Origin: Pirellulales bacterium
GTDB taxonomy: Bacteria; Planctomycetota; Planctomycetia; Pirellulales; Lacipirellulaceae
DNA: 64,000 bases
NCBI GenBank assembly: GCA_019636345.1
Contig: JAHBXQ010000002.1
Location: 620,001 to 684,000 of the forward strand
Direction: 5' to 3'
The position numbers and the translations under genes were made by a program. Positions within the stretch are counted from its first letter, which is position 1; the number at the start of each line of letters is the position of its first letter. The notes beneath the pieces are model-generated. The model was not told the origin of the DNA, did not search any database, and saw only the letters and a list, made by a program, of their open reading frames with translations. Below, piece by piece: positions 13,299 to 22,782 of this stretch.

Positions 13299-14156
13299 CT
13301 ATGTGCGTGTCACCGTCCCCGTGATCCAGCCGAACGGTTCGTCGGTCGCCACGAACACTTCGTTTTCGTTCGGTCGATCGCCGGGAACCAGCCGGGCGAG
13401 CAGGTGGTGCTTGTTGGGCATCGTGAGCGTGATCGCCGCGACTGCCTCGCACGCGTCGAGCGCCGCTTGGCCCATAAGCATCAACGTCTCTTGGACGCTC
13501 TTGCTGTAATGATCGATGAACCGTTTGAGGAGCGCCAGGCGCACGGCCTCCCGTGCTTGGGCGTAGTCAACGGCCGCCTCGGGGGCGTAGTCCCAACGGG
13601 CGGTCAACTCGGTCGCAAAGATCCGATCGGCCGTGTCGGGGAGCGTCCGGTATTCGTCGCGGTGGAAGTTTTCGAACCCCGTCTCGGTCGTCTTGGCGAT
13701 CACCAGCCCCTCGATCCCCGCCGAGACGCGCACCGGTTCGCCCCGCCGAGTCGTGACGACCGCGGTCGGGGTCTCGCCGTCGCTCCCCGAGAACGCGTGG
13801 GGACAGTCGAGCAGCCGATGCCAACGATGCTCAAGGAGGGTCGCCTTAGCCTGCGACACGTGGGCGTATTTCTTGATGAAGTGGGACGCCAGCGCCGTCC
13901 CGAACGATTCGATCGAGTCGAACGGGTCGTCCTTGGCGACTGCGTAGACGGTGTTCTTGCACGTGTCGGTGGCGACGACCTGCGTGTTGTCCCCCGCGGT
14001 GTACGCCGCGGCGAAATCCCCTTCCAGTTCGACGTCGACCGCGGCTTCGATGAACTCGTGCCGTTCCGTGTTCGGAGGCCCTTGGCGGGGGCGCTTGATC
14101 TTGCTCACTCGGACGCGGTGCTTGCCATAGGAGTTGTAGGTGAGTCGTACGCTCAT
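13299..14156 (-). CDS. Urate oxidase (uricase)
   Basis: Cofactor-free urate oxidase (urate + O2 to 5-hydroxyisourate and H2O2), 285 residues, a normal length. The T-fold signatures and active-site set are visible: Lys12 in SYGKHRV, Thr63/Asp64 in VVATDTCKNTVYAVAK, Gln222 in KSVQETL, and Asn248/His250 in LTMPNKHH, matching the Lys-Thr-His triad and the Gln and Asn that hold urate. The gene is on the minus strand, tail to tail with the amidohydrolase operon and divergent (151 bp) from the allantoinase gene. The C-terminus ends in TVTRT without a clear peroxisomal or export signal, so a cytoplasmic location is expected. Confidence 0.95.
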   Translation of the reverse strand: MSVRLTYNSYGKHRVRVSKIKRPRQGPPNTERHEFIEAAVDVELEGDFAAAYTAGDNTQVVATDTCKNTVYAVAKDDPFDSIESFGTALASHFIKKYAHVSQAKATLLEHRWHRLLDCPHAFSGSDGETPTAVVTTRRGEPVRVSAGIEGLVIAKTTETGFENFHRDEYRTLPDTADRIFATELTARWDYAPEAAVDYAQAREAVRLALLKRFIDHYSKSVQETLMLMGQAALDACEAVAAITLTMPNKHHLLARLVPGDRPNENEVFVATDEPFGWITGTVTRT

Positions 14157-14307
14157 TCAGTCCAACCTTCGCTCGGGATCGCTATGGGAAGAAGCCGCCC
14201 GCGGGTAAGATAGCACACCTCGCGGCGAGGCTGTAGCGCTGGGGCCGACGCTTCGCCCGTTGAGCGAATTCGCACATCCGCGCACTTTGACGACGCCACG
14301 CCGCACC

Positions 14308-15684
14308 ATGAACGACGATTCGGATGACGACGCCCGCGATGACGACCAACTCGGCGAAGCGTACGAATACGATGACGGGGACGAAGTCGCAGCAGGCGAA
14401 GAGGACGAGTTGGTTCTGAGCAGTTCGCGCGTCGTCTTGCCCGACGGCGAACGCCCCGCGACGATCGTCGTCCGCGACGGCGTCATCGCGGCGATCGAGC
14501 CGTACGGCCCCAAGCGGGGGATCGACTTCGGCAGTCGCGCGCTGCTGCCGGGGCTTGTCGATCCTCACGTCCATCTCAACGAACCGGGGCGGACCGAGTG
14601 GGAAGGATTCGCCTCCGGCACGGCCGCGGCCGCCGCCGGGGGGGTGACCACGGTCGTCGACATGCCGCTGAATTCCTCGCCCGTGACGACGACCGTCGCG
14701 GCTCTGGCGGTCAAACGGTCTGCGTCCGCGGGGCAGTTGTTCGTCGACGTGGCGTTCCACGCGGGGCTCGTCCCCGGCAACATCGGCGAGATCCTTCCGC
14801 TCCTCGACGCGGGAGTCCGCGGCGTGAAGGCGTTCTTGTGCCACAGCGGGATCGACGAGTTCCCCGCGGCGACGCGCGCTGAACTTGAGGCCGCGATGCC
14901 GCTGCTCGCCGAGCGCGGCGTGCCGCTGCTCGCCCATGCCGAGATCGCGACGCCGCAGCCGCCGCTCGCCGATCCGCGACGCTATGCGGACTACCTCGCC
15001 TCCCGGCCGCCGGAGTTCGAACGCAGGGCGATCGAGCTGTTGGTCGACCTGTGCCGCAAGACGGGCTGCCGGACGCACGTCGTGCATCTTGCCGACGCCG
15101 ACTGCCTGCCGTTGTTGGCCGACGCGAAGCGCGAAGGGCTGCCGCTGACCGTCGAGACGAGTCCGCATTATCTCTGCTTCGCGGCAGAGGAGATTGCCGA
15201 CGGGGCGACGGAGTTCAAGTGTGCCCCTCCGATTCGCTCTGCCGACAATCGCGAGCGGCTGTGGCAGGGCCTGCGCGACGGCGTGATCGATCTCGTGGCG
15301 AGCGATCACTCTCCCTGTCCGCCGACGATGAAGGCGCGCGACTCGGGGCGGTTCGACGAGGCGTGGGGAGGGATCAGCTCGTTGCAACTGGGGTTGCCGA
15401 TTATGGCGACCGAAGCGACACGCCGCGGGTTCGCGCTGGGCGACGTCGTTCGCTGGATGAGCGAGGCGCCAGGGCGATTGGCCGGCGTCGCGACGGGGCT
15501 CCGCGTCGGCGCCCCCGCCAACATCGTCGTCTTCGCCGCGGATCGGCAGTGGGACGTCGACGGGGCCGCGCTCGAACACCGTCATCCGCTCACTCCCTAC
15601 CACGGCCGGCGACTCCACGGGGTTGTGCAGAACACGTTCCTCCGCGGCACGCTGACCGGCATTCCCCGAGGACGCTGCGTATGA
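14308..15684 (+). CDS. allB: Allantoinase with acidic N-terminal extension
   Basis: Amidohydrolase-superfamily allantoinase (allantoin to allantoate), 458 residues. Metal and catalytic residues are in place: His87 and His89 in DPHVHLNEPGR, the lysine to be carboxylated at Lys174 in GVKAFLCHSG, His210 in LLAHAE, His260 in THVVHL, and Asp333 in ASDHSPC. A dihydroorotase or hydantoinase is less likely because the context is complete for urate breakdown. The first 34 residues are unusual: 18 are Asp or Glu, and they precede the beta-strand where related enzymes begin. I start at the ATG at 14308; a TTG at 14260 would only lengthen the extension. Its stop overlaps the next gene as ATGA. Confidence 0.92.
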   Translation: MNDDSDDDARDDDQLGEAYEYDDGDEVAAGEEDELVLSSSRVVLPDGERPATIVVRDGVIAAIEPYGPKRGIDFGSRALLPGLVDPHVHLNEPGRTEWEGFASGTAAAAAGGVTTVVDMPLNSSPVTTTVAALAVKRSASAGQLFVDVAFHAGLVPGNIGEILPLLDAGVRGVKAFLCHSGIDEFPAATRAELEAAMPLLAERGVPLLAHAEIATPQPPLADPRRYADYLASRPPEFERRAIELLVDLCRKTGCRTHVVHLADADCLPLLADAKREGLPLTVETSPHYLCFAAEEIADGATEFKCAPPIRSADNRERLWQGLRDGVIDLVASDHSPCPPTMKARDSGRFDEAWGGISSLQLGLPIMATEATRRGFALGDVVRWMSEAPGRLAGVATGLRVGAPANIVVFAADRQWDVDGAALEHRHPLTPYHGRRLHGVVQNTFLRGTLTGIPRGRCV

Positions 15685-16202
15685 GTCCCGAGTCCGTCGC
15701 CGCTCTCAACGCCGCCGACCCCGCCGCGGTCGCCGAGGAGTTTCGCAAGTGCTGCGGCGCCGAGGCGTGGATCCGCGCGATGACTGCTCGCCGCCCGTTT
15801 GCCGGTGCGGCGACAATCCACGCCGCCGCGGACGAGTGTTTCGACCAGTTGGCCGACGCCGATTGGTTGGAAGCGTTCGCGTGCCACCCCAAGATCGGCG
15901 ACATGAGCTCGCTGCGGATGAAGTTCGCCGGCAACGACCGCTGGAGCCGAGGCGAACAAGCCGGCGTCGACGCGGCGAGCGAGGATGTGATCCAAGCCCT
16001 GGCCGCGGGGAACGAGGCGTACTTGGCGCGGTTCGGCTATATATTCATCGTCTGCGCCACGGGGAAGAACGCCGCCGAGATGCTCGCGATCCTCGAGGGG
16101 CGACTCCAGAACGACCCGAACGACGAACTCCCGATCGCCGCGGCCGAACAACGGAAGATTACGCACCTGCGATTGGATAAACTTGGCTCCAGCCCCAGAT
16201 GA
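15681..16202 (+). CDS. 2-oxo-4-hydroxy-4-carboxy-5-ureidoimidazoline (OHCU) decarboxylase
   Basis: Decarboxylates OHCU to (S)-allantoin, the third step after uricase and hydroxyisourate hydrolase. The 173-residue all-helical protein has the catalytic His69 in CHPKIGDM, preceded by an acidic LADADWLEAFA helix, and the family segment YLARFGYIFIVCATGKNAAEML with a following LQNDPNDEL. Its start overlaps the allantoinase stop (ATGA), and hydroxyisourate hydrolase follows 63 bases after its stop, so the three are probably one transcript. In some bacteria this domain is fused to allantoinase or to the hydrolase; here the three are separate. Confidence 0.93.
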   Translation: MSPESVAALNAADPAAVAEEFRKCCGAEAWIRAMTARRPFAGAATIHAAADECFDQLADADWLEAFACHPKIGDMSSLRMKFAGNDRWSRGEQAGVDAASEDVIQALAAGNEAYLARFGYIFIVCATGKNAAEMLAILEGRLQNDPNDELPIAAAEQRKITHLRLDKLGSSPR

Positions 16203-16265
16203 GCCGCATCGCCTCGGCCTACGTAGCCTGTGACCTCTGCCTCTGCCCCCGCCTCTCCCTCAGCC

Positions 16266-16607
16266 ATGATCACGATCACGACGCACGTTCTCGATACGTC
16301 CTTGGGAAAGCCTGCCGCCGGGGTGCTCGTGGCACTGCAGGCGGTCGAGCCGACCGGCGTCCGCACGCTGTCGGCCGCGACGACCGACGCCGATGGTCGC
16401 GTGAAGCTGTGGCCCGGGCTGGACGACGGCGTCGCTCCGGGCTCGTTGCGGCTTGTCTTCGCGACGGGCGACTATTTCATCGCGACTGGCCGCGAGGCGT
16501 TCTTCCCGGCGGTGACGATCGATTTCCACCCCGCCGCCGACGATCAGCATTACCACGTGCCGCTCTTGTTGTCGCCGTTCGGGTATTCGACTTACCGCGG
16601 GAGCTGA
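16266..16607 (+). CDS. 5-hydroxyisourate hydrolase
   Basis: Transthyretin-related protein of 113 residues that hydrolyses 5-hydroxyisourate to OHCU. Both diagnostic ends are present: THVLDTSLGKPA at the N-terminus with catalytic His7, and the C-terminal tetrapeptide YRGS (HYHVPLLLSPFGYSTYRGS). The ATG at 16266 is chosen because the family begins at this beta-strand; a GTG at 16230 would add a Ser/Ala/Pro-rich leader. It has no signal peptide. It is the last gene of the allantoinase operon and is followed by a perfect hairpin at 16647. Confidence 0.95.
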   Translation: MITITTHVLDTSLGKPAAGVLVALQAVEPTGVRTLSAATTDADGRVKLWPGLDDGVAPGSLRLVFATGDYFIATGREAFFPAVTIDFHPAADDQHYHVPLLLSPFGYSTYRGS

Positions 16608-16705: not shown

Positions 16706-18418
16706 CTACGGCACTTGGTCGACGAACATCCAGCCGTTGTCAGCTACGCTGAACAGCGGTTGGTAGGGGCTGCCGCAGTTGGCCTTGGCTCGGGCGCCCC
16801 AGTGCCAGAAGACGTTGATGCCGATGTTCCACGATTCTTCCCGCGAGCCGTTCACGCCGGCGTTCTTGTCGGTGATGAGGTAATTGAACCCCGACTGGAC
16901 GCTCCAACGTCCGGAGCAAGGGTACCAGAACTCGGCCCCGAAGATCCCTTCGCTGTCGTTGGTGCCGCCGCCCCAGATGCGGAAGTTGCCGCCGTGGTTG
17001 TAGGTCCAGCGGAGGAACCCGACGTACTGGTCGACGGTCTGGTAAGTGATGGCGCCGACCGTGGCCGTGTCGAGGTGCGTGGCGCCCATGAAGCCGATCT
17101 CTCGGCCGCGGGGGCTCTTCAGGCTGATCTCGTAGCGGACCTGCTGCAAGCTGGCGTCGGCGATGAAATCGTCGTTCATGTAGTCCCACACGGCGCCGAA
17201 CTGCAGGCCGCTGTGAACGCGACGGAACAAACCGGCGGTGACGAACTGTTGCGAGCGATCGGACGTGCTGCCGCTGGAGCTTCCGGAGAGTTGGCTCTGC
17301 ACGCCCTGGTAGCCCAACTGGTAGCTGATCCCCGGGAAGAGGTGGTGGATGATCGGCGCCTTGCCGGCGATGTTGATCCCTTGCTGGAAGCCGAAGTTGC
17401 CGTCGCCGGCGCCGCCGAAGGCGGGAGCGTCGCGGGGACCCTTGAAGCCGTGCACGCCGCCCCAGACTCGCAGCTCCTTGAGCCGCGGCAGGCAGACCGG
17501 GAAGCACCAGTAATCGGGCCCCTCGACGCAACTGCCGCACCCGACGTCGCAGCCGCAGTCGGGTTCGGCGATGCCGCAACCGGGTTCGTAAATTCCGCAC
17601 CCCGGTTCCACGATGCCGCAGCCGGGTTCCATGATCCCGCAACTCGGCTCGGTGCAGCCGCAGGCCGGCTCCATGATGCCGCAACCGGGCTCGACGATGC
17701 CGCAACCGGGTTCCATGATCCCGCAGCTAGGTTCGCCGCAGCCGCAGGTCGGCTCCATGACGCCGCACCCGGGTTCGGCGAACGCGCACCCAGGGTCGAG
17801 CATGCTGCGACGACGGAGGAAGGTCGCCTGCTGCACTTGGCTGGACTGCGGAGCGCTGGCGGCGAATCGGCCTTGGTTCGTGCCGATCGCCTGCAGATCG
17901 CGATGCATGGCGACCCGCTGAGTCGGCGCCGGATCGCTGACATACGAGGGGCGCGGGGCCTGCCGAACGGCGGAGCGATCCGCGACCGGTTCGATGTTCA
18001 CGGCCGTCCGCACGGCTGGGGCGGTCTGTTGCTGAGGCGCGTCATTGAATGCAGCCCGGACGACGGCGTCGTTCGCGGCGGTCTTAGCCGGGGCGGGGGC
18101 CTTGGCGGTCCGCAGCGGGTTGACCCCCGCGGCTGGACGCTGCGTCGTCGACGGGCGCTGGGATGACGCCGTCGTCGAGGCCTTGGCCGCAGGCTTCGTC
18201 GGTTCGACGGGCTCGGCCTGCTCGGTCTCGGCGGCCGAGACGCTGCGGAACTGCACGCCCGCAGTCGAGGCGGTCGCCGTGCGTTGCGGTTTCTGGAAGT
18301 GGACGTGCTGGGCGCCCGTCTCATGGGCCGGCGTCGACGACCCGACGCCAAGCGTCAGGGCGAGAGCCGCCGCGGTCACGAGGCCGAATCGCGCGAGTTC
18401 GACACGGATGCGTCGCAT
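16706..18418 (-). CDS. Exported protein with cysteine heptad repeats and C-terminal beta-rich (barrel-like) domain
   Basis: Unrecognised exported protein of 570 residues. A signal segment (FGLVTAAALALTLGVGSSTPAHE) is followed by a low-complexity Ala/Thr/Pro/Gln region to about residue 205. Then come eleven perfect-length heptads of the form EPxCGxx (residues about 215-291), four of them with an extra Cys (CGC), ending in a CDVGCGSC cluster. The C-terminal 270 residues are rich in alternating aromatic and small residues (GISYQLGYQGVQ, FGAVWDYMNDDF, GGNFRIWGGGTNDSEG, WNIGINVFWHWG) and look like an outer-membrane beta-barrel or beta-helix domain. The heptads could form a disulfide-linked stalk or a metal-binding surface. 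The start is the ATG at 18418; a GTG 12 bases upstream is possible. The gene is monocistronic, with a 1.1-kb gap upstream. Confidence 0.75.
   Translation of the reverse strand: MRRIRVELARFGLVTAAALALTLGVGSSTPAHETGAQHVHFQKPQRTATASTAGVQFRSVSAAETEQAEPVEPTKPAAKASTTASSQRPSTTQRPAAGVNPLRTAKAPAPAKTAANDAVVRAAFNDAPQQQTAPAVRTAVNIEPVADRSAVRQAPRPSYVSDPAPTQRVAMHRDLQAIGTNQGRFAASAPQSSQVQQATFLRRRSMLDPGCAFAEPGCGVMEPTCGCGEPSCGIMEPGCGIVEPGCGIMEPACGCTEPSCGIMEPGCGIVEPGCGIYEPGCGIAEPDCGCDVGCGSCVEGPDYWCFPVCLPRLKELRVWGGVHGFKGPRDAPAFGGAGDGNFGFQQGINIAGKAPIIHHLFPGISYQLGYQGVQSQLSGSSSGSTSDRSQQFVTAGLFRRVHSGLQFGAVWDYMNDDFIADASLQQVRYEISLKSPRGREIGFMGATHLDTATVGAITYQTVDQYVGFLRWTYNHGGNFRIWGGGTNDSEGIFGAEFWYPCSGRWSVQSGFNYLITDKNAGVNGSREESWNIGINVFWHWGARAKANCGSPYQPLFSVADNGWMFVDQVP
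17546..17776 (-). repeat. Eleven in-frame 21-bp repeats encoding EPxCGxx heptads
   Basis: Tandem coding repeat, period 21 bp, inside the exported cysteine-rich protein. The heptads run in order GVM, GCG, GIM, GIV, GIM, GCT, GIM, GIV, GIY, GIA and GCD (last three residues of each), with EP and C fixed. Codons vary between copies, so the array is not a very recent expansion. Its antisense strand is also open, which explains a repetitive plus-strand reading frame here that should not be annotated. Confidence 0.9.
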
Positions 18419-19533
18419 AGTTTGTCCCACGGGGGAGAGCCGTCGAGGCTCGACCGCCGCCTTGGTGCTCGACGCTGGCGATCTTCGCGATTTGGCCCGG
18501 CTTTTCTACGGCCTGCGGCTGCGTCGCGAATGCTCGCTGCGTCTGGTAGCCCCCCCGGGAACCAACACGTTAGTGGTGGTATCGGAGCCCCCCAGGGCCG
18601 CACTTGCGGAAAAATCCGCGCAACCGGCAAATTTTAACGACGGCGCCAGCAGTGCCGGCTTGGGCCGGATCATGATCGCGGGTCGGAATGATGCCGTTGC
18701 TTCGAAATCCCGTTGCGCTCGTCGTATCGTCGTGGCTCAACGCGCGTTGATGCGACTGCAACCGCGTTTCCTGTTCCCACGCGGGAGCGGGCGCAAGGAG
18801 GACGTCGGCCCGCCTGTGGATTGCCTTGTCCGAGTTCCGGTTTCCGCATTTTTCCTGCGGAGGCGCCCGTCGCGCCACGCTGCAAATTCAACGGGGCGGA
18901 CTGTCTAGCAACTTTTGCGCCATCAGCCCGCGCACTGCGAATTCCAGGGAAACGCCGGTCGCCTCGGCCCGCGAATTCCCAAAATCCTGGCCGATCGCGG
19001 CGAAACGCGCAACGACTCTCGCGCCGACCGGGCCGGCGCAAAGCGTCCCTTCGGGCAAAGTCGATGTTGCCTCGTCCGAAAGTTGTGCTGATACTTGAAA
19101 TGTACGCGATGCAGGCGACTCTCCGGCCGCGGTCGGTTCCTTGGCGAGCGGGCCACGGGGGCGAGTTGCTGCGGCGTCACGGGCGAACTCGTTCGCCCCC
19201 CGTCCCGCGCCCGAGCGACGCCCCCGCTCTTTGCCAACTTCGCAGCGGTTCGTGCCATCCCCGGCTCGGACTTTGTCGGCGACTCTTTCGCTGGGAACAG
19301 AATCGGTTCCCGCGTCTCTCCCGCGACCGCCTCTGTGCGGCGGTCTCGCTTAGCCAAGTTTCCTTGCCCGATCATGGCAACGGAGCACGGTCGATTGTCG
19401 TCGAACTGCTGCGAACGCGATGAAGTCCGGCGGCGTGGAACGCGGCGCGAACCGTCCCGCCTGAATCCCGCCGTTCGAGTCAGAGAGCAACCCCCTCGCT
19501 TGCGCGAGGTCCCCGCCGTGAGGAACAAAGGAC
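18419..19533. other. Long intergenic region (1.1 kb) without a supported gene
   Basis: Between two divergent genes. Several reading frames are open because of the high GC, but none gives a recognisable protein, plausible composition or start signal. Frames across 18.7-19.4 kb are Arg/Pro-rich, as expected of non-coding GC-rich DNA. It may hold long untranslated leaders and promoters for both flanking genes; only one weak promoter match (19067-19095) is reported. Confidence 0.6.
19067..19095 (+). promoter_or_regulatory. Weak promoter match upstream of prkA
   Basis: TTGCCT, a 17-base spacer and GATACT, with TG one base before the -10 element. It is about 440 bp upstream of the prkA start, so it would imply a long leader. 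Confidence 0.22.
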
Positions 19534-21579
19534 ATGGCCCGCGGAATTGATATCGTCAGCCTCGTTTCCGATCGCCAGGACCGCGACCAGTTTCGTCGCA
19601 AGAACTGGGTCGGCACGTTCGAGCAATACCTCGACATCGTCGCCGGCAACCCGCAGGTGACGCGCACCGCGTACCAACGGCTGTACGACATGATCTTGTC
19701 GTACGGAGTCGAGGTCGAGGAGAAGGGACGCGAGAAGCGCTACCGTTACAGGTTCTTCGAGGATCCCGACAACGAGGGGCGCGACGCAGTGTTCGGGCTG
19801 CGCGGGCCGCTGCACAACTTGGTCAACGCGCTGAAGAGCGCCGCTCACGAGTACGGGATTGAAAAGCGGGTGCTGCTCTTGCACGGCCCCGTGGGGAGCA
19901 GCAAGAGCACGATCGTGCGGCTCCTGAAGCAGGGGCTGCAGCGGTACAGCGCCACCGACGAGGGCGCCCTGTACACCCTCGGCTGGGTCGACGAGCAGGA
20001 CCCCGAGGAGGTCCACTGGTGCCCGATGAACGAGGAGCCGCTGCACCTCATCCCCGCGCGGTTCCGCCCCGACGTCGAGGCCCAGCTCAACGCGGGCCGC
20101 GGCGAGGACGACGTCAAGGTTCGCATCCGCGGCGATCTCGATCCGTTCTGCCGGTTCATGTACCAGAACCGGCTCAAAAAGTACGACGGCGACTGGACTC
20201 GGGTGGTCCAGGACGTGCGAATCAAGCGCGTCATCCTCAGCGAGCAGGACCGCGTGGGGATCGGCACGTTCCAGCCCAAGGACGAGAAGAACCAGGATGC
20301 GACCGAGCTGACCGGCGACATCAACTACCGCAAGATCGCGGTTTACGGCAGCGAGAGCGACCCTCGGGCGTTCAACTTCGACGGCGAGTTCAACATCGCC
20401 AACCGGGGCATTATCGAGTTCGTCGAGGTGCTCAAACTCGACGTGGCGTTCTTGTACGACCTCTTGGGGGCGAGCCAGGAGCATCGCATCAAGCCGAAGA
20501 AGTTCGCCCAGACCGACATCGACGAGGTGATCCTAGGCCACACGAACGAGCCGGAATACAAACGGCTGCAGAACAACGAGTTCATGGAGGCCCTGCGCGA
20601 TCGGACGGTGAAGATCGACATCCCGTACGTGACGACGCTGGCGGACGAAATCCAGATCTACGAGAAGGACTACAACCCGCGCACGGTGCCGAAGCACATC
20701 GCCCCGCACACGATCGAAATGGCCGCGATGTGGGCGGTTCTCACGCGGCTAGAGGAGCCGAAGCACGCCGGACTGTCGCGGCTGCAGAAGCTGAAGCTCT
20801 ACAACGGCAAGACCTTGCCCGGGTTCACTCGGGACAACATCAACGAACTCCGCGACGAAGCGCACAACGAAGGACTCATCGGCATCTCGCCGCGGTACGT
20901 GCAGGACAAGATCTCTAACGCGCTCGTGAACCATCCCGAGAGCTCGTCGATCAACCCCTTCATGGTCCTTAACGAACTCGAAACGGGCCTCAAGCATCAC
21001 AGTCTCATCAACAGCGAGGAGACCAAGGGCGAGTACCGCGAACTGCTTTCGGTGGTGAAGGAGGAGTACGCCAACATCGTGAAGAACGAGGTGCAACGCG
21101 CAATCGCCGCCGACGAGGCCGCCCTCGCCCGGCTGTGCGGCAATTACATCGACAATATCAAGGCCTATACGCAGCGCGAGAAGGTCAAGAACCCCTACAC
21201 CGGCCAGTACGACGAGCCGGACGAGCGGCTCATGCGCTCGGTCGAAGAAAAAATCGACATCCCCGAGAGCCGCAAGGACGATTTCCGCCGGGAAATTATG
21301 AATTACATCGGCGCCCTGGCGATCGACGGCAAGCGGTTCGATTACAAGACCAACGAACGCTTGCACAAGGCGCTGGAGTTGAAGCTGTTCGAAGACCAGA
21401 AGGACTCAATCAAGCTCACGAGCCTCGTCTCGAACGTCGTCGACGCCGAGACGCAGCAGAAGATCGACGTGGTGAAAGGCCGCCTCATCCGCGACTACGG
21501 CTACGACGAAGAGAGCGCGACCGACGTTTTGAACTACGTGGCGAGCATCTTCGCCCGAGGCGATGCCAAGGAGAAGTAG
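19534..21579 (+). CDS. prkA: PrkA family serine protein kinase
   Basis: PrkA AAA-type ATPase/serine kinase, 681 residues, close to the usual 630-690. The N-terminal AAA domain begins at about residue 25 ([12 protein letters not shown]) and has the Walker [10 protein letters not shown] near 111-119. The C-terminal PrkA domain includes [22 protein letters not shown] and the conserved [20 protein letters not shown] region. GAGGA lies 10 bases before the ATG. It heads a set with yeaH and spoVR in the same order as in many bacteria, where the three act in stress or stationary-phase adaptation. In Bacillus, PrkA and SpoVR are linked to sporulation; no sporulation is expected here. Confidence 0.95.
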
Positions 21580-21581
21580 AC

Positions 21582-21656
21582 TTCAGCCCCGGGCTCTGCC
21601 CGGGGGTTAGAAGCGGTCCCTGAAAGTAGACCCCCCGGGCAGAGCCCGGGGCTGAA
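21582..21656. repeat. Nested palindrome: perfect 25-bp inverted repeat whose arms are themselves hairpins
   Basis: Left arm 21582-21606 and right arm 21632-21656 are exact reverse complements separated by 25 bases. Each arm contains its own near-perfect palindrome CCCCGGGC-TCT-GCCCGGGG (right arm with AGA). The element fills nearly all of the 99-bp gap between prkA and yeaH, starting 2 bases after the prkA stop. It could be a dispersed repeat (REP-like), or an attenuator or processing hairpin that sets the prkA:yeaH ratio. Confidence 0.9.
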
Positions 21657-21678
21657 TGTTGTCAACTTACGATTGAGC

Positions 21679-22782
21679 ATGGAAATCAACCGCGACAACC
21701 GCCGGTTTAAGCAAATCGTCCGGGGACGGATTCGGGAGAATCTGCGCAAGTACATCACCCACGGCGAGATGATCGGCCGGAAGGGGCGCGACTTGGTGAG
21801 CATCCCGGTGCCGCAGCTTGACGTGCCGAAGTTTCGGTTCGGCAAGAACGGCTCCGGCGGGGTGGGGCAGGGGGACGGCAAAGTCGGCGATCCGATCGGA
21901 CAACCGGGCGACGGCGACGGCGGACAAGGAGGCGCCGGCAGCGAGCCGGGGTCGGGCCACCTGTTGGAAGTCGACGTTTCGCTCGACGAGTTGGCCGAAA
22001 TGCTGGGCGATGAATTGGAACTTCCCCGCATTCAGCCCAAGGGCGCCGCGAACATCGAAGCCGAGAAGTCGAAGTACAACAGCATCCGCCAGACGGGGCC
22101 CGAGTCGCTCCGCCATCGTCGCCGGACCTACTTGCGGGCCCTGCGGAGGCAGATCAGCACCGGGTCGTACGAGATTGACGATCCCCGGGTCGTGCCGATT
22201 CGGGCCGACCACCAGTATCGCTCGTGGAACGACGTTCCCGCGCCGCAAGTGAACGCCGCGGCGATCTACCTGATGGACGTCTCGGGGTCGATGACCGACG
22301 AGCAGAAACAGATTGTCCGCACCGAGGCGTTCTGGATCGACGCTTGGCTCGCCAAGCAGTATCAGGGAGTCGAGCGGCGGTACGTCATCCACGACGCGGT
22401 GGCCAAGGAGGTCGACGAGCACACCTTCTACCACACTCGCGAGAGCGGAGGCACGCGGATTTCCAGCGCGTACAAAGAGGCGGCCGAGTTGATCGACCGG
22501 GCTTTCCCCGTCGATCAGTGGAACATTTACTGCTTCCAGTTTTCGGACGGCGACAACTGGGGGGACGACAACCGCCGAGCGTTCGAGCTCTTGCGCGAGC
22601 GGATCCTGCCGGCGGTCAATATGTTCTGCTACGGCCAAGTCGAGAGCCCTTACGGCAGCGGCGACTTCATCGACGCCCTGACGAAGGAGTTTGGCGACCA
22701 CGAGAAGATCATCACCTCGGAAATCGCCGATCGCGACGCGATCTACGAGTCGATTCGGACGTTTCTCGGCAAAGGCAAATAG
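21679..22782 (+). CDS. yeaH: YeaH/YhbH family protein (DUF444, VWA-like)
   Basis: UPF0229/DUF444 protein of 367 residues, partner of PrkA and SpoVR. The N-terminus ([21 protein letters not shown]) is typical, followed by a Gly-rich linker (about 54-92) and a segment with [16 protein letters not shown]. The C-terminal half is a von Willebrand A-like domain with a MIDAS-like DVSGSMTD at about 201-208 and later [11 protein letters not shown]. The ATG at 21679 is preferred to a TTG 6 bases upstream. The prkA-yeaH gap is almost entirely the nested palindrome. Confidence 0.93.

Follow-up and report, generated by a model that had tools for sequence, protein, structure and literature searches.

A predicted DUF6666 outer-membrane barrel with a ladder of cysteine-bearing EPxCG units, and its possible connection to the planctomycete protein wall

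One gene in the window, meaning the whole 64,000-nucleotide stretch of planctomycete DNA that was analysed, encodes a candidate outer-membrane barrel whose ladder of thiols, probably periplasmic, might join the barrel to a disulfide-stabilised protein wall. This reading is put forward tentatively, as somewhat short of probable. The protein would be exported and anchored in the outer membrane by a C-terminal barrel that matches the Pfam family DUF6666 (PF20371). The Cys-rich linker before the barrel, expanded here into a ladder of EPxCG units, would present one thiol on each acidic Pro/Gly-turn unit and hang in the periplasm. There, the ladder thiols could form intermolecular disulfides with other Cys-rich proteins that bear EPxCG, and the barrel would then staple the outer membrane to the wall. 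The gene and its parts, in window coordinates, are as follows.

16706-18430, minus strand: whole frame of the DUF6666 protein, from its translation and the starts of relatives
18326-18418, minus strand: Sec-type signal peptide (MRRIRVELARFGLVTAAALALTLGVGSSTPA), assigned by eye from the translation and from relatives
17798-18325, minus strand: segment rich in Pro, Ala, Ser and Thr, probably disordered, assigned by eye from the translation
17777-17797, minus strand: degenerate first unit DPGCAFA, from its in-register sequence
17546-17776, minus strand: eleven EPxCGxx heptads with 14 Cys, from repeat counts, codons and shuffles
17483-17545, minus strand: Cys-containing connector VGCGSCVEGPDYWCFPVCLPR, up to the first barrel strand, from the translation
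16802-17482, minus strand: predicted 12-stranded outer-membrane beta-barrel, strands from residues 317-330 to 533-543, from the model and structure matches
16709-16801, minus strand: conserved C-terminal tail that follows strand 12 (...PLFSVADNGWMFVDQVP), from a motif in relatives

The frame yields 574 residues from a GTG codon and 570 from an ATG at 18418. The latter position is the start common to relatives (L038, ...QSMRRSRVE; L041, ...TMKLSD) and is likely to be the true one. A preliminary description of the region had proposed an exported protein in which a disordered segment, a Cys array and a barrel-like domain follow one another. That order was right, with the signal peptide and the disorder both recognised by eye.

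The same description located eleven in-register EPxCGxx heptads at 17546-17776, and these coordinates proved exact. Residues 219-295 are eleven consecutive EPxCG units with a period of 7, running from 17776 down to 17546 on the minus strand, and a twelfth, degenerate unit stands in register before them. When the DUF6666 protein was shuffled 5000 times, the longest run was a single unit, reached in 40 shuffles, and the remaining 4960 contained none. The trailing CDVGCGSC that had been pointed out is present, whereas the second Cys attributed to four units occurs in just three, namely units 2, 6 and 11, which read CGCG, CGCT and CGCD. In composition, the 77 residues of the array include 14 Cys, 11 Pro, 11 Glu and 2 Asp, with no Lys or Arg and, by translation, no His. 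A total of 19 Cys lie between DPGCAFA and the first barrel strand, and in a three-row alignment the connector has invariant CGS.V and DYWCFP.CLPR elements.

Read as DNA, the array repeats in tandem every 21 bp with only 67% matches, and above this period lies an 84-bp, four-unit repeat with 85% matches. The difference suggests a more recent duplication of four-unit blocks. The four-unit level spans window positions 17595-17781, and units 2 and 6, both with two Cys, are likewise spaced four units apart. Codon usage varies among the units (GAA 7 and GAG 4; CCC 6, CCG 4 and CCT 1; GGC 8, GGG 2 and GGA 1), and Cys is encoded by TGC throughout. Because synonymous changes affect the Glu, Pro and Gly codons and leave these positions unaltered in the protein, selection on the protein looks to have kept these residues in place.

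The array matched no Pfam, NCBIfam or PHROGs profile and no PDB sequence, which rules it out as a known repeat domain in those collections, and NCBIfam and PHROGs gave nothing for the whole protein. The earlier remark that no domain with this heptad is known agrees with this, and was incomplete in that the domain after the array carries a name. The DUF6666 match covers residues 289-570 (16721-17566; E 3e-87, 293.3 bits against a gathering score of 27 bits) and profile positions 8-301 of 301. It begins at array unit 11; apart from this unit, the ladder is not covered by the profile. The barrel domain and tail form a clear member of the Pfam family, and a Cys-rich linker is placed in the same way in most relatives. 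The Pfam entry line gives no function.

A search of 296 genomes from the order, which we take to be Pirellulales, turned up members of this family in 263. Among 294 genomes drawn from the phylum there were seven with the domain, five of the same order (including the genome under study) and two of the same class. These last two, from another order, carry divergent copies, one with a single Cys in its linker (L082, genome G400) and one whose frame has two internal stops (L083, genome G574). The genome under study has one copy, and by eye one match per genome is usual across the order. Six or seven matches were present in each of the genomes G052, G029 and G061, which suggests local expansion of the family. 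Taken with the model described below, this distribution supports a gene product that would be an outer-membrane protein characteristic of this order of planctomycetes. A motif of the form [AG][DN]N[GSNT] occurs within the last 25 residues of 98 of 101 relatives, and in the protein itself the tail at 16709-16801 (minus strand) reads PLF.VADNG..FVD. An N-terminal F/W-[QRK]-x-P/S pattern, which by eye had seemed conserved, was present in 62 of 100 relatives and was set aside as a conserved motif, since the pattern is too loose to claim.

The case for a barrel comes from structure prediction. When the barrel and tail were modelled alone with AlphaFold, the result was twelve long strands followed by the C-terminal tail, with pLDDT 71.8 and pTM 0.70. 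One of the five models was good and the next reached pLDDT 45.5, and the alignment used held three sequences, so the prediction should be regarded as good rather than certain. The best VIA matches were NalP (Z 18.6, rmsd 2.6, 206 residues aligned), a COG4313 channel (Z 18.1) and KdgM (Z 17.9), all of which we take to be 12-stranded outer-membrane barrels, and a weaker first model agrees with this result (NalP, Z 19.2). Ordered by Foldseek E-value, porins of the OmpC and OmpG types ranked above the 12-stranded barrels and superposed poorly (rmsd 8-11); these types presumably have 16 and 14 strands, respectively. Given this porin-first order, the class of barrel is firmer than the number of strands. 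Overall, the prediction supports assignment of the DUF6666 domain as a 12-stranded outer-membrane beta-barrel: it describes an even-stranded, antiparallel barrel in an exported protein, as is expected of outer-membrane barrels, with the signal peptide judged by eye, and the proteins it matches are outer-membrane barrels of solved structure. The predicted fold resembles those of KdgM/NanC, the COG4313 channel, autotransporter translocators and FapF (VIA Z about 16.5-18.6), whereas identity in the structural alignments is about 4-11%. We know of no Cys ladder in any of these proteins.

Modelling of the array together with the barrel gave a pLDDT of only 47, and the array itself was unstructured (pLDDT 22-26). 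Structure prediction had been suggested as a check on the preliminary description, and it returned the barrel-like domain and no structure for the array, which with three aligned sequences is a negative of low weight. In the barrel model the odd loops are long at the first, fourth and last positions (14, 15 and 13 residues) and short at the other three (6, 5 and 4), and the turns opposite have 4, 4, 4, 5 and 10 residues. The even strand number and the three long odd loops fit weakly with a periplasmic N-terminus in this model. When a barrel has 12 strands, an N-terminus outside the barrel is generally periplasmic. Since the array precedes strand 1 of such a barrel, it would face the periplasm, provided that it is not threaded to the outside.

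Comparisons across the family indicate which part of the ladder is retained. The relatives comprised 71 distinct DUF6666 proteins and 34 further loci, 105 in all; the set of 71 leans toward the same taxonomic family and toward high DUF6666 scores, 30 genomes were hand-chosen to spread over families, and membership of the same taxonomic family (the f1 group) follows a hand list made from kinship data. Two partial frames (L116 and L083) were set aside for linker counts, and these two together with L131 and L084 were left out of the tree and of the counts of tails and Cys fractions, which use 101 barrels. Within the 130 residues before strand 1, at least eight Cys were present in all 42 members of the same family, and at least four in 52 of 61 relatives outside it. 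The other nine had fewer than four, and three of them (L081, L105 and L122) had none, so the barrel does not depend on Cys. In these 130 residues the median Cys fraction was 11.5%; within the barrel it was 0.8%, and the linker value was the higher of the two in 98 of 101 proteins.

Among the 42 family members, 33 have ladders of at least three EPxCG units, as do 15 of the 61 others. Unit numbers range from 0 to 12 among DUF6666 relatives, so that eleven is near the top. A near-canonical unit was defined as one with at least three of its four features, such that each feature was equally able to be missing. In 259 such units from 43 proteins, Cys was retained in 258, Gly in 249, Glu or Asp in 248 and Pro in 221. 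Loss of Cys in close relatives would have counted against the proposed array, and the relatives instead keep it almost without exception. The period of 7 fared differently as a general feature. Considering spacings of 6 or 7, 97 of 111 were 7 in the f1 clade, whereas 24 of 25 were 6 in the f15 subclade, which refutes the heptad pitch as essential and argues against a rod of fixed geometry, a disulfide-rich surface rod being one of the forms that had been suggested for the array. Because Cys is kept while unit number and pitch vary, it is the thiol-bearing EPxCG unit that matters, and the conserved element is a thiol on an acidic turn rather than heptad geometry.

The same unit recurs in other Cys-rich proteins of these bacteria. 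The YTV domain (PF07639) was found in all 40 genomes tested, and the genome under study has 13 YTV domain matches in three frames, the most Cys-rich of which (70 Cys) ends ...CCPCDPSCGCATEPSCGCTE. One best frame per genome, and all three from this genome, were surveyed, which gave 34 stretches that come mostly from best-match genomes and are a non-random sample. Three open-ended frames and one masked frame were then left out, and the resulting set of 30 includes L161, which is complete, and L162, which has an odd tail. In nine of these 30 proteins, with the genome under study represented among them, the last 40 residues contain [ED]PxCG units, 12 in all; in L149 this is just DPCCGG. Shuffled tails held a mean of 0.14 units and did not exceed 2 in any of 2000 rounds. 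Outside the tails, the YTV proteins (17,413 residues with 1866 Cys) contained no unit at all. The other 21 tails lack the unit. Co-occurrence of a ladder (at least three units) with a YTV tail was tabulated by hand for 27 genomes and was not significant (6/13 versus 2/14; Fisher p 0.10).

A composite search of the same genome uncovered a further protein (G000:C2:32307-32819; L169 1078-1590, plus strand), for which the match alone was weak (E 0.06). It has 170 residues, a signal-like start, 47 Cys, two LFAKxKARRAARKACC blocks and seven EPxCGC units, where shuffles reached at most 2 in 5000. It matched nothing in Pfam, and in NCBIfam matches were at chance level (E 0.09). Another locus of this genome (L170 1208-1699, plus strand, G000:C3) encodes an exported-looking protein of 163 residues, 27 of them Cys; this protein has AP.CGC repeats, which are related to the unit, and one block GLFARLKARK, but no [ED]PxCG. 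Blocks resembling GLFARLKARK appear as GGLLKKLFGG in the YTV tails of L151 and L152. Two weak matches to the array elsewhere in the genome (L005 and L007) were discarded, as the listed frames show no EPxCG units, and in the window a single [ED]PxCG occurs in only one other frame of 318. At the level of sequence, the EPxCG unit is common to the DUF6666 barrel protein, to some YTV C-termini and to the 47-Cys protein. YTV proteins are exported, extremely Cys-rich and restricted in lineage according to the excerpted text of PMC8567305, and in this they are like the DUF6666 protein, with some sharing the [ED]PxCG end. In contrast, the DUF6666 protein has no YTV domain by Pfam, and its architecture differs by eye.

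The ladder might have no partner at all. Slippage could expand the units of a low-complexity, Cys-rich spacer in which Cys is kept because internal disulfides stiffen the linker, and such an origin is possible, though we consider it unlikely. It would account for the wide variation in unit number, for an array state that changes at least nine times on the tree of 101 barrels, and for the recently duplicated look of the 84-bp blocks. Even numbers of linker Cys are also slightly more common in the same family (28 of 42 members; p 0.04, with related rows) and are not clearly favoured among all linkers (60 of 103; p 0.11). Against it are the presence of Cys in all but one of the 259 units, the synonymous drift between units and the presence of EPxCG in two unrelated kinds of exported protein, YTV and the 47-Cys protein.

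A less probable alternative, and a doubtful one, is that the protein resembles an autotransporter, in which the N-terminal 280 residues would be threaded through the barrel and the ladder would form a cross-linked fibre or adhesin outside the cell. The order of parts agrees with this proposal (a signal peptide, an N-terminal non-barrel region and, in the model, a C-terminal 12-stranded barrel), and the NalP translocator is the top VIA match with either model. Chlamydial Pmps, presumably autotransporters, offer a precedent of sorts. The excerpted text of PMC7589890 names them among the members of an outer-membrane complex linked by disulfides. However, no autotransporter profile was matched in Pfam, where only DUF6666 appeared at E up to 1 with HMMER filters that drop most weaker matches. 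No helix is predicted before strand 1, at low confidence in that region (pLDDT below 50), and the chain continues past strand 12 into a conserved 31-residue tail whose motif is nearly universal in relatives. An oxidised Cys-rich stretch is awkward to thread through a barrel, and the 19 Cys before the barrel would, if oxidised, pose this difficulty. Exposure of the array at the surface, as in the rod once suggested, is a possibility and not the likelier side.

Least probable of the three, and improbable on balance, is a metallothionein-like array that would buffer or deliver zinc, copper or cadmium at the barrel. In its favour, 14 Cys and 13 acidic residues are packed into 77 positions, with CGC occurring three times, and the thiols might stay reduced in a genome where DsbB and VKOR were not found. 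It is opposed by the lack of any His, of a match to metallothionein or another profile and of metal genes among five profiled neighbours, by Cys that mostly occur once per 7 residues rather than in clusters, and by a unit common to YTV wall proteins, which points to structure rather than metal trafficking.

The matter of oxidation also bears on the staple itself. No match to DsbB or VKOR was found in the genome under study, which is 95.9% complete, so a DsbA would lack its customary re-oxidising partner or depend on another one. This same genome encodes exported-looking proteins with 47-70 Cys. Along with the DsbB and VKOR that were not found, several observations count against a staple, whose disulfides and partner we infer: the patchy occurrence of the unit in YTV tails, the non-significant co-occurrence, the relatives with few or no linker Cys, the lack of a clear preference for even numbers of linker Cys, and the lack of wall genes among the five neighbours profiled.

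Several reports bear on a disulfide-based attachment. The envelope of Planctomyces was described as a disulfide-stabilised protein layer rich in Pro and Cys (PMC3035269), and planctomycete envelopes more broadly as protein walls rich in these residues and held by disulfides (PMC3035269; PMC8567305). YTV proteins are reported as major constituents of SDS-boiled walls of Gemmata (PMC5287468), as top-scoring in a wall preparation of Tuwongella (PMC8567305) and, as cited in the latter source, as cysteine-rich components of wall preparations of Rhodopirellula baltica. In Planctopirus limnophila, a YTV protein belongs to an essential set that is nearly exclusive to planctomycetes (PMC10632474). Apart from the Rhodopirellula citation, the papers on disulfide walls concern other orders, which also weighs against the staple. 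YTV proteins are thus named as Cys-rich wall components, and the excerpts of PMC3035269 and PMC8567305 contain nothing on how the wall is attached to the outer membrane. A DUF6666 protein present across the order would be a candidate for that role, and the EPxCG unit offers a concrete sequence handle.

Chlamydiae and Planctomycetes are both PVC bacteria, and a chlamydial system provides a likeness in working principle. The chlamydial outer-membrane complex (MOMP, OmcB, OmcA and Pmps) gains rigidity from intermolecular disulfides among Cys-rich proteins that include a barrel, and interchangeable 'cysteine-rich pockets' in the MOMP barrel have been proposed to link it into a disulfide mesh (PMC7589890, in excerpt). 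The present case differs in that the thiols belong to a repeat ladder before a predicted barrel and not within one. If the ladder of the proposed staple offers many equivalent thiols to which the pairing partner is indifferent, unit number would be free to drift while Cys is kept.

A broader and more speculative proposal, to be considered unlikely yet ahead of the partnerless spacer, is that EPxCG constitutes a shared module for envelope cross-linking, in which like pairs with like and the outer membrane is fastened to a covalent wall. With the same degree of doubt, the module would extend over the barrel, the YTV wall proteins and the 47-Cys protein with its basic KARRAARK stretches, all joined by interchangeable disulfides. 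Should this be true, copy number, free to expand or contract, would tune the density of staples.

In the open-licence literature no mention of DUF6666 was found, and the same holds for the predicted fold, the ladder and the occurrence of its unit in YTV and the 47-Cys protein. Mentions of EPGCG, EPSCG, EPxCG or PF20371 were unrelated by title and start of abstract among the open-licence matches listed. The family of the barrel already has a name, as a DUF.

The gene context gave few clues. No operon context was found for the barrel gene, no promoter-like site was found at it, and a single terminator was found versus 3.0 in shuffles, which is not meaningful. The five neighbours profiled are a uricase, an amidohydrolase, an HIUase/transthyretin-family protein, PrkA and DUF444, with no wall or metal genes among them. 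None of the five was shared at L039 when tested there. The uricase, amidohydrolase and HIUase/transthyretin-family genes lie together at window positions 13299-16607, beside the barrel gene, in what looks like a urate-degradation cluster. On the other side, a gene for a PrkA kinase and, after it, one for a DUF444 protein (19534-22782) are divergent from the barrel gene, and PrkA also adjoins the barrel gene in a relative of the same genus (L038).
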